Origin: Sphingomonadales bacterium
GTDB taxonomy: Bacteria; Bacteroidota; Bacteroidia; NS11-12g; UBA955
Length of the DNA: 40,365 nucleotides
Direction of reading: 5' to 3'
Assembly (NCBI GenBank): GCA_016872175.1
Contig: VHBA01000019.1
Span: 1 to 40,365 of the forward strand
This document shows positions 6,281-11,513 of this stretch, one piece after another (within the stretch, counting starts at the first letter, position 1; each line of letters opens with the position of its first letter). The position numbers were made by a program, and so were the translations under genes. The notes below the pieces were generated by a model. It was not told the DNA's origin and searched no databases. It worked only from the letters and a program-made list of their open reading frames with translations.

Positions 6281-8413
6281 GTGGCAAACAAACACCTCAT
6301 CTCTCACTACTTCGGCGAAAACGTTTTCGGACCCGAAGCCCAGAAAAAGTATCTTAGCAAAACTGCCGTTAAAGCCATTGCCGATGCGCAGCGCGAAGGC
6401 AACCCCATCTCGGCCGAGCTGGCCAGTGAAGTAGCTTCCGGGATTAAGGATTGGGCATTGAACAAAGGCTGTACACATTACACCCACTGGTTTCAGCCAC
6501 TGCGCGGAACCACCGCAGAAAAGCACGACAGCTTTTTTGAGCCCATTGCCACCGATAAAGGGGTTGAGAAATTCAGCGGCAAAGCCCTGGTACAACAGGA
6601 GCCCGACGCTTCCAGCTTCCCCAGCGGCGGTATTCGCAATACCTTCGAAGCCCGCGGCTACACCGCTTGGGATCCATCTTCTCCGGCGTTCATCATGGAA
6701 AAAGCCGGTGCCAAAACGCTCTGCATCCCCACCATTTTTGTTTCCTACACAGGCGAAGCACTGGATTACAAGGCGCCCCTGCTGAAAGCCATAGCCCTGG
6801 TGCGCAAGGCATCTACCGATGTTTGTCAGTATTTCGATTCCAAGGTTACGGATTGCACCATCAGCCTGGGTGTGGAACAGGAATACTTTCTGGTGGATGA
6901 AGCCCATTTCCACCAGCGTCCCGATTTGATGCTGGCCGGTAGAACACTCGTGGGAAGTTCGCCAGCCAAAGGGCAACAGCTCGAAGATCATTACTTCGGC
7001 AGCATTCCCAACCGCGTGCTGGCATTTATGGCTGATTTTGAAGAAGCAAGCCACAAACTGGGTATTCCCCTGCGTACACGCCACAATGAGGTTGCCCCCG
7101 CGCAGTTTGAGTGCGCACCCCAGTTTGAAGATGCAAACCTGGCGGTAGACCACAACAGCCTTTTAATGGATGTGATGGAAAGCGTGGCCGATAAACACGG
7201 ACTCAAGGTGTTGTTCCACGAGAAGCCCTTCAAAGGCATCAACGGCAGTGGTAAGCACAATAACTGGAGCATTATCACCAATACCGGCGTGAATGTGCTT
7301 TCACCCGGCGCCGATCCTCAAAACAACCTGCAGTTTCTCACGTTTTTTATCAATACCATCAAAGCAGTTTACGACCACGCCGATTTGCTCCGCGCCAGCA
7401 TTGCAACCGCAGCCAACGATCACCGTCTGGGTGCCAACGAAGCACCACCCGCCATTGTGTCGGTGTTTGTGGGTGATACCCTCGAGCACGTGCTGGATAC
7501 CTTTGAAGGTACCAAAACCACAGCCAAAGCAGGGAAGGGAAGTGCCAGCATCAAAATTGCCAATATCCCTGAAATTCTGCTGGATAATACGGACAGAAAC
7601 CGTACATCGCCGTTCGCCTTCACCGGCAATAAATTTGAGTTCAGGGCTGTGGGGAGCAGCGACAACTGCGCCAGCGCCATGACTGTGCTGAACACCATTG
7701 TGGCCGACCAACTCATCAAGTTTAAAAAGGATGTGGATGCCGCTATTAAGTCCAAGAAAGGCACCAAACCCGAAGCGGCCATAACGAAGGTGTTGCAGGG
7801 CTACCTGAAAGACAGCAAGAAAGTGTTGTTTGGTGGCAACGGCTACAGCGACGCATGGGTGAAAGAAGCCAAAAGCCGTGGGTTGAACAACATTAAAACC
7901 ACGCCCCGTGCGCTGGAGGCTTACATCAGCAAGGCCAGCACCGATTTGTTTGTGAAAAACGGCATTTTCAACCACAAAGAGCTGGAAGCCCGCACAGAGA
8001 TTCGTTTCGAAAACTACATACTGCGCCTGCAAATAGAAGGCCGCCTGATCAATGAAATGGTGCAAAACCACATTGTGCCCGCAGCCATCAATTATCAGAA
8101 GCGCCTGGCCGATAACGTGCAAACCCTGCTTCAGATTGGGCAGAAGAAAGAAACGTTAAAAGCACAGAACGAAATCATTAGCGAAATAAGCGGTTTGGTA
8201 AACAAACTGCATGAGGCCAACAAAGCCATGACCGCAGAGCGAGCCAATGCCAACAAAATTGAGGATGCCCACAAACGCGCCATTGCTTACTGCGAAAAGG
8301 TGAAACCTTTGTTCGACGACATCCGCGAATACAGCGATGCGCTGGAAAGCATGATAGACGACAACGAGTGGCCTTTCCCCAAGTACCGCGATTTGCTGAG
8401 CGGCTGCCGCTAA
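6281..8413 (+). CDS. glnN: Type III glutamine synthetase
   Basis: GSIII makes glutamine from glutamate, ammonia and ATP in the cytosol, the main ammonia-assimilation step in many Bacteroidota. The protein has 710 residues, near the family size of about 720-730. Visible signatures are FGENVF near the N terminus, THYTHWFQPLRGTTAEKHD, SFPSGGIRNTFEARGYTAWD, the catalytic NGSGKHNNWS segment, LGANEAPPA, and NRTSPFAFTGNKFEFRAVGS. An upstream in-frame TAA at 6263-6265 leaves the GTG at 6281 as the only reasonable start. The protein then lacks the roughly 25-residue N-terminal arm seen in some relatives. The stop codon (8411-8413) lies inside the left arm of an 87-nt palindrome. No P-II or regulator gene is adjacent. 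Several long antisense frames here are codon-bias shadows. Confidence 0.95.
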   Translation: MANKHLISHYFGENVFGPEAQKKYLSKTAVKAIADAQREGNPISAELASEVASGIKDWALNKGCTHYTHWFQPLRGTTAEKHDSFFEPIATDKGVEKFSGKALVQQEPDASSFPSGGIRNTFEARGYTAWDPSSPAFIMEKAGAKTLCIPTIFVSYTGEALDYKAPLLKAIALVRKASTDVCQYFDSKVTDCTISLGVEQEYFLVDEAHFHQRPDLMLAGRTLVGSSPAKGQQLEDHYFGSIPNRVLAFMADFEEASHKLGIPLRTRHNEVAPAQFECAPQFEDANLAVDHNSLLMDVMESVADKHGLKVLFHEKPFKGINGSGKHNNWSIITNTGVNVLSPGADPQNNLQFLTFFINTIKAVYDHADLLRASIATAANDHRLGANEAPPAIVSVFVGDTLEHVLDTFEGTKTTAKAGKGSASIKIANIPEILLDNTDRNRTSPFAFTGNKFEFRAVGSSDNCASAMTVLNTIVADQLIKFKKDVDAAIKSKKGTKPEAAITKVLQGYLKDSKKVLFGGNGYSDAWVKEAKSRGLNNIKTTPRALEAYISKASTDLFVKNGIFNHKELEARTEIRFENYILRLQIEGRLINEMVQNHIVPAAINYQKRLADNVQTLLQIGQKKETLKAQNEIISEISGLVNKLHEANKAMTAERANANKIEDAHKRAIAYCEKVKPLFDDIREYSDALESMIDDNEWPFPKYRDLLSGCR

Positions 8414-8493
8414 CGGTTTGCGTGTAGGCGATGTTGCCTTGTGTGCCCCGCATGTGCGGGGGCAAGGCAATATTGCTTACACGCTGTTAGCGG
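8407..8493 (+). repeat. 87-nt imperfect palindrome capping glutamine synthetase; possible terminator or mobile repeat
   Basis: The arms pair in four blocks: CCGCTAAC (8407-8414) with GTTAGCGG (8486-8493), GCGTGTA (8420-8426) with TACACGC (8478-8484), a 15-bp block (8427-8441 with 8463-8477), and a CCCCGCA/TGCGGGG apex (8446-8461). The only three non-Watson-Crick positions in the 15-bp block are G-T pairs (8427/8477, 8430/8474, 8433/8471), which stay paired in plus-strand RNA. Small asymmetric bulges separate the blocks. It lies between two convergent genes and could terminate or stabilise the upstream mRNA, though it lacks a clear U-run. Its size, end words and structure resemble dispersed palindromic repeats. 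Confidence 0.75.
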
Positions 8494-8959
8494 TATGTAC
8501 ATTTAGGCATCTATGTTAAATTTTTCAATGTTAAATCCTAGGCTGTAATCTTCATCAAGATTCTCAACATCTTGTAATTCTAATTTAAGTGTCCGATAAA
8601 ACTTTCTCTCAGGATTAATTCCCAAAGTGAATGTTTCATTTTTTATCAATGTATTTAAATGAAATACCGGTTGAACTTGGTAAGGGTCAACCAGTAAATG
8701 TATAGGAAATTGATTTTTTCTTTCATCAATGAAGCATCCTTGTTGGTCATCGAAAACAACATATTTCAGCTCAGCGATTAGTTTAACCTTTGAAATGAAA
8801 TTAGTCCATTCGTTTTCAAAATTCTTTTGGGATGTTACGAAAGCACTATGTATCAGTAAAGAGCTGTCTTCAGAATTCAATTTGATTTCTAACTCAGGGT
8901 TTGACTTATTTAGATTTATCTGTTCCAATTTGGTATCGTGTTTTTGTATTACCGCTAAC
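8486..8959. repeat. Segment framed by inverted GTTAGCGGTA / TACCGCTAAC
   Basis: GTTAGCGGTA at 8486-8495 reappears as its reverse complement at 8950-8959, enclosing most of the hypothetical gene at 8503-8988. The same eight-base core also forms the left foot of the neighbouring palindrome (8407-8414). Three copies of an eight-base word within 550 bp are unlikely by chance, so this may be the footprint of an inserted unit. The inverted arrangement argues against an ordinary integron cassette, whose recombination sites are direct repeats. Confidence 0.4.
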
Positions 8960-8988
8960 TTACCTATTGGCGCAACAAAGTTGCACAT
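8503..8988 (-). CDS. Hypothetical protein, 161 residues
   Basis: I do not recognise this protein. It is soluble and mixed alpha/beta in appearance, rich in Lys, Glu, Asn and Leu, with no signal peptide or membrane segment. It contains VKLIAELKYVVFDDQQGC and ends NIEKFNIDA. Its codons are more AT-rich than those of the flanking glutamine synthetase gene. The ATG at 8988 is preceded by AAAGGAAAAT, a plausible ribosome site. However, the first ~13 codons lie across one of the inverted repeats, and a TTG at 8928 (giving 141 residues, MEQINLNKSNPE) is an alternative start. It is convergent with the glutamine synthetase gene and separated from it only by the palindrome. It is probably a horizontally spread accessory gene. 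Confidence 0.6.
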   Translation of the reverse strand: MCNFVAPIGKLAVIQKHDTKLEQINLNKSNPELEIKLNSEDSSLLIHSAFVTSQKNFENEWTNFISKVKLIAELKYVVFDDQQGCFIDERKNQFPIHLLVDPYQVQPVFHLNTLIKNETFTLGINPERKFYRTLKLELQDVENLDEDYSLGFNIEKFNIDA

Positions 8989-9117
8989 ATTTTCCTTTAT
9001 AGCCGGACGAATTGTGCAACCGGTTTGCCATCTTGTATTTCAATAATACACAATCGCATTACAAATTCAAAACGAAAGACGGGTGGTTTTTTGAAAATTC
9101 CACAATACCAACCCGCT

Positions 9118-9714
9118 TCAATCCATAAACCACACCCAAAAATCGGGGGTGAGGGTTTCCAGCAATGCGTCTGCAATAAACAGCGGCATGAGTGCCCATA
9201 CAAAAACAGAACGCGGATGTTTCATGATTCGGTAAATCCATAACAGCGGAAATATCAATTTCAATAAAATAACCCCGCCAAATAATCCCATTCACCAAAT
9301 GTATCCAATCATGCCGTTCATGGGTGGCAAGGCCTTGGGGTCGTAATAGCCACCCTCAATCGGTATTGCAGCATTGTGCAGCCCGTTGGCGTAATATGGA
9401 ATTACCTGCCAGCCGAGATGAAAGATTAATAATAGCGCATAGAAACTGAATAGCCGAATCTCACTGTCCAAGGTTTGCATTTGCAGGCGAATGGTAATCA
9501 AAACAGCGGCAATCGTCATAAGCATTGCTGTGCCCATGATAATTTCGCGTAAATTGTGTTCCGTTGATGTTTTATGTGTCACATCCCACACGCTTTTCCA
9601 TGCAGGGTGTGCATCGATTACAGGTGCAAATGTTAAACAACACAATTCGAGTACAAGCAAAGCTGCAAGGATGGCTAAAGGTGTTAAAAAATGGCATATG
9701 GGGTAATTCACCAA
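9118..9714 (-). pseudogene. Five-helix membrane protein interrupted by one in-frame TGA
   Basis: The minus strand reads a 140-residue hydrophobic protein (9292-9714) ending MIGYIW, then TGA at 9292-9294. The next codon, in the same frame, is ATG (9291-9289), and the frame runs for 57 more residues to a TGA at 9118-9120. The downstream part is clearly a membrane protein too: GLFGGVILLKLIFPLLWIY, then FVWALMPLFIADALLETL. Together there are about five hydrophobic segments in a protein of about 198 residues, which looks like one gene with a nonsense mutation (for example TGG to TGA). Alternatively these are two abutting subunits with TGA-ATG coupled translation. The N terminus lacks an ATG; TTG at 9714 or GTG at 9711 would be used. 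I recognise no family. Confidence 0.55.
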
Positions 9715-9759
9715 GATTTAACGAATGTCTTACAACATAAATTGTAGACGAATAAAAAA

Positions 9760-9990
9760 TCAGGCTGCCTTTACCGTTGGAATTAACTCAGCGTATTGCA
9801 TGGTATGCAATGCACATTCTGATCGGAGATAGTATATATGCCCATTGAAAAGTAGGGTGCTTTTATCATTGAATGGAATTTTATTTCTCAATAAAAAGGC
9901 CTTTAAGGCAAATTTGCTGCCATCAATAAATTGAATTTGCTGCTTGAAGTGTGTGAATTTTACGGATTTTAATTCAGATGTTTTTCTCAT
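9760..9990 (-). CDS. Small hypothetical protein, 76 residues
   Basis: This is a basic, soluble small protein (MRKTSELKSVKFTHFKQQIQ...) with no recognisable domain. The alternation of hydrophobic stretches such as IQFIDGSKFALKAFLL and STLLFNGHIYYL looks like a short alpha/beta fold. A TAACTTTA element in the 25 bp before the ATG is one base from the -7 consensus. It lies downstream of the terminator of the 31-residue membrane protein gene, on the same strand. Coding status rests on frame, start and composition only. Confidence 0.4.
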   Translation of the reverse strand: MRKTSELKSVKFTHFKQQIQFIDGSKFALKAFLLRNKIPFNDKSTLLFNGHIYYLRSECALHTMQYAELIPTVKAA

Positions 9991-10044
9991 ACTATAAAGT
10001 TAAACCGGCTAAAGGGAATAAAAAAATAAAAACATGCTTTAAAC

Positions 10045-10069
10045 AAAAAAGCCCCGGTTTCCCAGGGCT
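10045..10069 (-). terminator. Rho-independent terminator after the 31-residue membrane protein gene
   Basis: On the minus strand AGCCCTGG, loop GAAA, CCGGGGCT is followed by a T-run (TTTTTT). The stem begins a few bases after the TGA stop at 10076. This is a classic intrinsic terminator and supports the tiny gene upstream as a real transcript. Confidence 0.75.
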
Positions 10070-10075
10070 ACTTGC

Positions 10076-10171
10076 TCAGTCTTTTTTACGGGATGTGAGC
10101 CAGGCTATAAGAAAAATAGCCGGTATTACCACCACAATGCCCGCAAAAATTAAAATGTAACTTTCATTCAT
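10076..10171 (-). CDS. 31-residue single-pass membrane microprotein
   Basis: The minus strand encodes 31 residues: MNESYILIFAGIVVVIPA, then IFLIAWLTSRKKD. It has a short polar N terminus, one membrane helix of about 22 residues and a basic tail (RKKD). By the positive-inside rule the C terminus would be cytoplasmic. It starts with ATG and ends in TGA, and a strong intrinsic terminator follows almost directly (10045-10069). It is too short for normal gene callers. Such small inner-membrane proteins often modulate larger membrane complexes, but no partner is evident here. Confidence 0.6.
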   Translation of the reverse strand: MNESYILIFAGIVVVIPAIFLIAWLTSRKKD

Positions 10172-10507
10172 AGGCAATCATGTTTTTAGTTAATACGAAG
10201 TAAGTTAAAATAAGCATAAAAACAAATGTTTTTGTGTGAAATGATAAAGGATAACTTGTTGAAATTCTATTGTCACCTTGTGGATGGTGAGTGTCGTCAT
10301 GATTTTGTGGATTACGTAAGTTATTCACATGATAAAAACCTTCTTGTGTTGCCCCACTTTATAAACGACGCAAAAAATGCGGAGAAAAATATTTTAAAAT
10401 ATACTTTAAAAGCATATATAGTATAGTAAATAGCTATTTTACATGTTGCAAAAAAACGCCTGTTCAGTCCCTTGTTTGTAACTTGTGTTGAGCAACTGGT
10501 CTATGTC
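10172..10507. other. Gene-poor AT-rich segment with DnaA-box-like words
   Basis: I see no convincing gene here. TGTGGATGG (10279-10287), TGTGGATTA (10306-10314) and TTATTCACA (10321-10329) resemble DnaA boxes; the last matches TTATNCACA exactly. They are followed by about 70 bp of very AT-rich DNA (about 10376-10445) that includes the palindrome ATATTTTAAAATAT (10389-10402). A 66-codon frame (10226-10426) crosses this but looks random. Confidence 0.35.
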
Positions 10508-10540
10508 TTTGGCGATTAAGCCTTGCTGATTGTAAATTTG
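10508..10540 (+). promoter_or_regulatory. Bacteroidota-type promoter of trxB
   Basis: TTTG (10508-10511) is followed after 21 nt by TAAATTTG (10533-10540), an exact match to TTTG-N19-21-TAnnTTTG. The transcript would begin near 10547, about 7 nt before the ATG at 10554. Confidence 0.65.
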
Positions 10541-10553
10541 CCCTTACGATACC

Positions 10554-11513
10554 ATGACCAATTCACCCGAACACGTAGAATGTTTAATTATCGGCAGCGG
10601 CCCTGCTGGTTATACCGCTGCCATTTATGCCGCCCGTGCCGACATGAAACCCGTTTTGTACGAAGGCCTTCAGCCCGGCGGACAGCTCACCATTACCACA
10701 GAAGTGGAAAACTATCCCGGTTATCCCGATGGGATTATGGGTCCGGAAATGATGGAAATGTTCAAAAAGCAGGCCGTGCGCTTGGGAACAGACGTTCGTT
10801 TTGGAATGGTAACTTCCGTAGAGTTTAAAAACGGTGGTCCCCAGAAAGTGATGGTAGATGGCACCCGTGAAATTATAGCCGACGCCGTGATCATCTCTAC
10901 CGGTGCCAGTGCCAAATGGCTGGGCATTCCCAGTGAGCAACGCCTGAACGGAAGTGGCGTAAGTGCCTGTGCCGTTTGTGATGGATTCTTCTACCGCAAC
11001 TCGGATGTGGCCATTGTGGGTGCCGGCGATACGGCCTGTGAAGAAGCCAGCTACCTGTCAAAAATTTGCTCGAACGTTTATATGCTGGTTCGTAAGGATG
11101 AATTCCGCGCCAGCAAAGCCATGCAGCACCGCGTGATGACCACGCCCAATATTGAAGTGCTTTTCAATACCGAAACCGATGAAATCCTCGGTCAGCAAAC
11201 CGTTGAGGCCGTTCGTGTAAAAAATAATCAGACCGGTGAAACCCGCGAAATTCCCATTAAAGGATTTTTTGTGGCAATCGGGCATACCCCAAATACAGAA
11301 ATTTTCAAACCCTACATCAACATGGATGAGCAGGGATATATTGTCACCAAGGCTGGAACTTCCTACACCAACGTGGAAGGGGTTTTCTGTGCCGGTGATG
11401 CGCAGGATAAGGTTTACCGACAAGCTGTTACTGCCGCAGGCAGTGGCTGTATGGCTGCCCTGGATGCTGAAAGATGGCTTGCTTCCCGCAATTCGGCAAG
11501 CGCAGGCGCCTGA
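10554..11513 (+). CDS. trxB: Thioredoxin reductase
   Basis: TrxB passes electrons from NADPH through FAD and a redox disulfide to thioredoxin in the cytosol. The 319-residue protein has the FAD-binding GSGPAGYTAAIYAARA near residues 14-29, the redox motif CAVC (Cys139 and Cys142), and the NADPH loop GAGDTACEEA. A basic VRKDEFRAS follows the NADPH domain (canonical HRRDxxRA), and GVFCAGDAQDKVYRQAVTAA closes the FAD site. Length is standard. The ATG at 10554 is preceded by a consensus promoter. The stop codon overlaps the start of the next gene (TGATG), so the two are probably cotranscribed and translationally coupled. Confidence 0.97.
   Translation: MTNSPEHVECLIIGSGPAGYTAAIYAARADMKPVLYEGLQPGGQLTITTEVENYPGYPDGIMGPEMMEMFKKQAVRLGTDVRFGMVTSVEFKNGGPQKVMVDGTREIIADAVIISTGASAKWLGIPSEQRLNGSGVSACAVCDGFFYRNSDVAIVGAGDTACEEASYLSKICSNVYMLVRKDEFRASKAMQHRVMTTPNIEVLFNTETDEILGQQTVEAVRVKNNQTGETREIPIKGFFVAIGHTPNTEIFKPYINMDEQGYIVTKAGTSYTNVEGVFCAGDAQDKVYRQAVTAAGSGCMAALDAERWLASRNSASAGA

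Follow-up and report, generated by a model that had tools for sequence, protein, structure and literature searches.

Between two ORFs of 710 and 319 aa, which from recognition of their sequences we take to be a type III-like glnA and trxB, a minus-strand reading frame for a hydrophobic protein is interrupted by a single TGA and continues, without a change of phase, from the very next codon, an ATG. The question raised by this locus is whether the two parts are the remains of one gene struck by a nonsense mutation, a deliberately divided gene whose second part is translated by restart at the ATG, or one gene whose TGA is read through. The locus was analysed in its window, that is, the whole 40,365-nucleotide stretch of contig VHBA01000019.1; the features are collected in Table 1.

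Table 1. Features of the disrupted gene and its surroundings (window coordinates).
Feature	Position	Strand	Description
glnA	6281-8413	+	type III-like, 710 aa
3' flank	8956-9117		common to G002 and, partly, G004; holds dispersed palindromic repeat
Stretch with relics in congeners G002 and G004	9118-9192	-	about the last 25 codons
3' part	9118-9291	-	ATG directly after TGA; helices 4-5; LTPxFxxWFMD-like C-terminal motif
In-frame TGA	9292-9294	-	codon 141, immediately after invariant Trp140
5' part	9292-9714	-	TTG (or adjacent GTG) start; helices 1-3; conserved YDPKxL...IG..W motif
76-aa ORF, adjacent on the upstream side	9760-9990	-	61% identical copy at the same place in G001
trxB	10554-11513	+	319 aa

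The original prediction, that one in-frame TGA is followed by an ATG in the same frame (9289-9291) and that the halves are exactly contiguous, was borne out by the sequence and the ORF coordinates, and the junction reads '...GMIGYIW*MGLFGG...'. The upstream frame contains 140 codons, whereas the downstream frame contains 57 and closes with a second TGA at 9118-9120. The TTG at the beginning of the upstream frame is followed by a GTG, and a stop lies two codons 5' of it. No in-frame ATG occurs until codon 60, so the start must be TTG or GTG; the missing early ATG would fit a second, milder lesion. The five hydrophobic helices that had been proposed are plausible, although the structure model on which they can be judged is poor (built from two aligned sequences; mean pLDDT 51); its long helices were predicted at residues 4-35, 51-79, 85-103, 134-165 and 170-187, in addition to three short ones.

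Its length would not by itself mark the open frame as a gene: of 2000 sequences simulated from the glnA-trxB interval with a first-order Markov model, 53 contained a frame of 197 codons or more interrupted by no more than one stop. The composition of both parts resembled that of genes: G+C at the three codon positions was 0.48/0.38/0.48 in the 5' half and 0.46/0.33/0.49 in the 3' half, compared with 0.50/0.38/0.47 in the large ORFs of the window. Codon usage was still gene-like in both halves, and the 594 bases of the gene contained only one clear lesion and no frameshift.

Relatives of the read-through product

The 198-residue read-through product matched one family of uncharacterised membrane proteins from Bacteroidota. 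Among 395 genomes of the window's class there was one clear relative (G299:C70, E 2e-14), in Bacteroidia bacterium isolate HJW.53 (record JALRAS010000163.1). A two-sequence profile identified a relative in G709 among 395 genomes of the phylum, and a three-sequence profile searched against 391 genomes of the class of G709 identified G709, G881, G897, G900 and G914, which all belong to one genus; in G743, a further listed genome of this genus, the three-sequence profile did not find the gene. The count of six full-length relatives leaves out the weak matches in G170 and G249 (E 5e-4 and 9e-4), G618 and G766, as well as matches of the class search with E values of 0.0037 to 0.1. Three other candidates were rejected: the match in G206 and G665 runs through stops ahead of a secreted-protein gene that is unrelated, and that in G149 is an 88-aa frame on the strand opposite a 732-aa ORF.

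In each of the six relatives the protein is encoded by one uninterrupted frame, which has about 201-202 codons when delimited by hand; for one of them (L106), whose mechanical ORF is longer, an internal ATG was used. The original prediction had proposed that the two halves be searched as one query; the continuous frames of all six relatives support a nonsense mutation, and no relative encoding two separate proteins was found. The window copy was 20-25% identical to the relatives, and it resembled them in length, in the GL...YDPKxL...W motif and in a C-terminus ending with LTPxFxxWFMD, of which the other six sequences carry close variants. Across all seven sequences, the YDPK motif, L129, I136, W140, W195 and D198 were invariant. 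The relatives differ from the window copy in that their frames are uninterrupted.

A profile of the six relatives, from which the window sequence was left out, was compared with six-frame translations of the window interval and gave one alignment crossing the TGA (E = 8e-23), in which profile positions 14-202 (of 202) were matched to window residues 13-198, a total of 186 residues. The whole product scored 77.9 bits with this profile, the N-terminal part alone 68.8 bits and the C-terminal part alone 8.7 bits; for the C-terminal part, one of 2000 shuffles scored higher, at 10.0 bits. The similarity thus extends over the whole length, on both sides of the TGA. Because of this match to a profile made of homologs only and the gene-like G+C at the codon positions, the read-through frame is a real coding sequence, and on the same sequence comparisons the window gene is assigned to an unnamed, patchily distributed family of Bacteroidota membrane proteins with about 200 residues and five predicted helices. 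The relatives outline this small family with a clear motif.

Searches with the read-through protein returned nothing in the GTDB genome contigs, viral contigs, plasmids, phages, PDB sequences, Pfam or NCBIfam. When three family members were scanned, none exceeded the Pfam cut-off and none matched PHROGs; the G299 protein had two sub-threshold Pfam lines (E 0.04 and 0.05), which were regarded as noise, and the G709 protein gave nothing in plasmids. In G709, G914 and G897 (L100, L106 and L107) the relative adjoins a gene with a CxxCH motif, which in G709 matched Cytochrome P460 in Pfam (E 5e-10), and a cupin-like gene also adjoins it in G709 and G897 (the Pfam name was obtained for G709 only). 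These neighbours may hint at the role of the family. The G709 relative lies beside Cytochrome P460-domain and cupin genes, whereas neither of the two window neighbours that were scanned, the 76-aa ORF among them, matched a Pfam family.

Fate of the gene in the genus

At E <= 1e-3 the gene was not found in any of the six congeners, the 69 other genomes of the family or the 107 other genomes of the order; weaker matches of the order search in G064, G066 and G070 (E 0.02-0.2) lie outside this count. The matches of the order search in G004 and G002 were found to be 3' relics. Both lie at the orthologous site, beside the same conserved small ORF and the same 3' flank: the small ORF with its terminator-like hairpin directly precedes them, and they are followed by the flank with the same repeat, which anchors their orthology. 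Their translations in G002 and G004, ...FVQNCLAKPLTPNFWGWFMN-stop and ...FLAPLQAKRQSLTPDFWVWFIMD-stop, are the counterpart of ...FIADALLETLTPDFWVWFMD-stop in the window. The DNA alignment of the relics is firm over the last 41 bases (9118-9158, 86% in G004), and in G002 it is firm over the whole of 8956-9158 (71%); relic codons beyond 9118-9158 were aligned by eye. As the scores of the relics against a profile containing the window sequence were weak (E 0.03 and 0.23), the case for them rests on synteny and DNA identity.

The most plausible view of the relics in G002 and G004 is that they are what a deletion of the 5' part left of this gene. Their position at the same locus implies that the gene was present in an ancestor and was then deleted. 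Gain of the gene by insertion in the window's lineage was rejected as an explanation, since sequence encoding the C-terminal motif of the family is already present at the orthologous site of G002 and G004. The two congeners may share one deletion: their breakpoints, which follow the hairpin of the small ORF, are similar in appearance, but a tree of trxB and glnA gave only 41-61% support around the window, G004 and G002. G001 keeps the 76-aa ORF without the gene. Missing from the sampled congeners and apparently deleted in at least two of them, the gene is judged to be dispensable in this genus. Several stages of gene loss can be placed side by side, with the gene intact in distant relatives, disrupted by a nonsense codon here, reduced to a 3' stub in two congeners and gone elsewhere.

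Readings of the in-frame TGA

We consider the locus to be a nonsense pseudogene, in which the TGA at codon 141 interrupts a dispensable gene for a five-helix membrane protein of about 200 residues, and we give this reading a probability of about three in four. It is supported by the uninterrupted sequence of all six relatives at the stop position, by the profile alignment across the TGA and by the decay of the gene in this lineage, where it is absent from six of six congeners, two of them with 3' relics. Among the three possibilities that the original prediction had named, the nonsense mutation was thus favoured by the continuous relatives, and neither deliberate coding in two pieces nor read-through gained comparative support. 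The residues of the six relatives at the site of the TGA are Tyr, Ser, Asn, Asn, Asn and Ser. The TGA probably arose by substitution in a formerly intact local copy. The mutation is best read as recent, no other clear lesion having accumulated.

On this reading, the locus would formerly have carried one gene for a five-helix protein of roughly 200 residues, and weak or absent selection in the genus would have allowed the nonsense mutation. Termination after helix 3 would leave a three-helix fragment, with loss of the last two helices and the conserved C-terminus, and the product is probably non-functional. Chance restart at the adjacent ATG might still produce the remaining 57 residues at a low or some level. 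The locus is similar to bacterial nonsense pseudogenes in having intact homologs elsewhere, one in-frame stop, and loss or relics in related species; it differs from them in showing one clear lesion so far and in the ATG after the stop, through which some expression of the second part might persist. Some observations stand against the nonsense reading: there is only one clear lesion and both halves are still gene-like; the ATG directly after the stop suits reinitiation, and only one of the 55 codons that are one substitution away from a stop has an ATG as the next codon; the relatives are distant, and an intact close relative, which would prove the earlier state, was not found among the genomes searched; and the relics score weakly with the profile. 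A nonsense mutation would be an ordinary event in an unnamed gene family, with little importance beyond annotation.

The best surviving alternative is a lineage-specific fission, in which restart at the TGA-ATG junction would yield three-helix and two-helix pieces in coupled amounts that associate in the membrane. We regard it as unlikely, although the stop and the start are adjacent, at zero distance, both halves remain coding-like, and the break falls near the start of helix 4 of the poor model. In a 2023 study (PMC10666635), a very short distance between stop and start was found to be strongly required for reinitiation, for which reason a restart at the adjacent ATG is conceivable. None of the six relatives is split, the Met at position 142 is not conserved in them, no other sampled genome of the genus has the gene, and the split form is known from one genome only. 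In addition, a chance ATG within three codons of a new stop is not rare, as eight of the 55 codons one substitution away from a stop have one at such a distance. Termination-reinitiation pairs usually overlap by 4 or 1 nt (ATGA or TGATG). The junction studied here is similar to such pairs in its zero distance and common direction, whereas its stop and start share no nucleotide and belong to one frame, and the two parts form one protein in every relative found. The full scenario, with zero-distance reinitiation at the junction, pieces that re-assemble in the membrane and a genus that has otherwise discarded the gene, appears slightly less probable again. If both halves were made, the locus would offer a rare case of a membrane protein that has undergone fission in nature.

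It is improbable that the cell carries an intact gene and that the TGA stems from a consensus error in the assembly or from a minor strain in a mixture. The genome is a draft of 91 contigs and the lesion is a single codon, which would suit such an origin, but chance creation of the only stop of the gene by an error would be improbable a priori, and the absence of the gene across the genus makes real decay unsurprising.

Read-through or recoding of the TGA (as selenocysteine, as Trp or by regulated leakage) to give the full-length protein is very improbable: the frame beyond the stop is intact, and in-frame stops are argued in PMC7918605 to be often conserved and tolerated in bacterial genes and not necessarily to mean loss of function, but neither Cys nor Trp was found at the site in the six aligned relatives, TGA is an ordinary stop in the window, where it ends 4 of 19 large ORFs picked from the ORF list, and the folding of the RNA around the stop barely exceeded that of shuffled sequences (z -1.4 and -0.8), so that selenocysteine, a changed code and a read-through signal are all without support. 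There was no tRNA of any kind within the window.

Variability of the glnA-trxB interval

Counting the window, trxB was found in seven of seven genomes of the genus, and six of them have glnA on the same contig as trxB; in G001, the stretch of the contig that was analysed lacks glnA. The interval between the two genes (window 8414-10553; loci L047, L048, L049 and L051) appears as a variable hotspot in the genus, with lengths of 843 bp in G002, 2.1 kb in the window, ~12 kb in G004 and about 13.5 kb in G006. In G004, G005 and G006 the two genes are separated by other sequence of about 11-13.5 kb, and large genes lie beside trxB in G001.

A dispersed palindromic element occupies 8956-9030 of the window, with an arm like AACTTACTTATTGGCGCAACAAAGTTGCACATA and its reverse, and supplies the first codons of an ORF at 8503-8988. 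Similar palindromic stretches were observed in G002 (C4, C10, C30 and C133), G003 C138, G004 C15, G047 C5, G031 C106 and G000:C25:7033-7071, and the element of this genome family resembles a miniature mobile or REP-like element. A very short conserved membrane ORF lies at about 10083-10170 of the window (minus strand), divergent from trxB and accompanied by a terminator-like hairpin. It ends with ...AIFLIAWLTSRKK in G002, and matching DNA was aligned in G001, G002, G004, G005 and G006.
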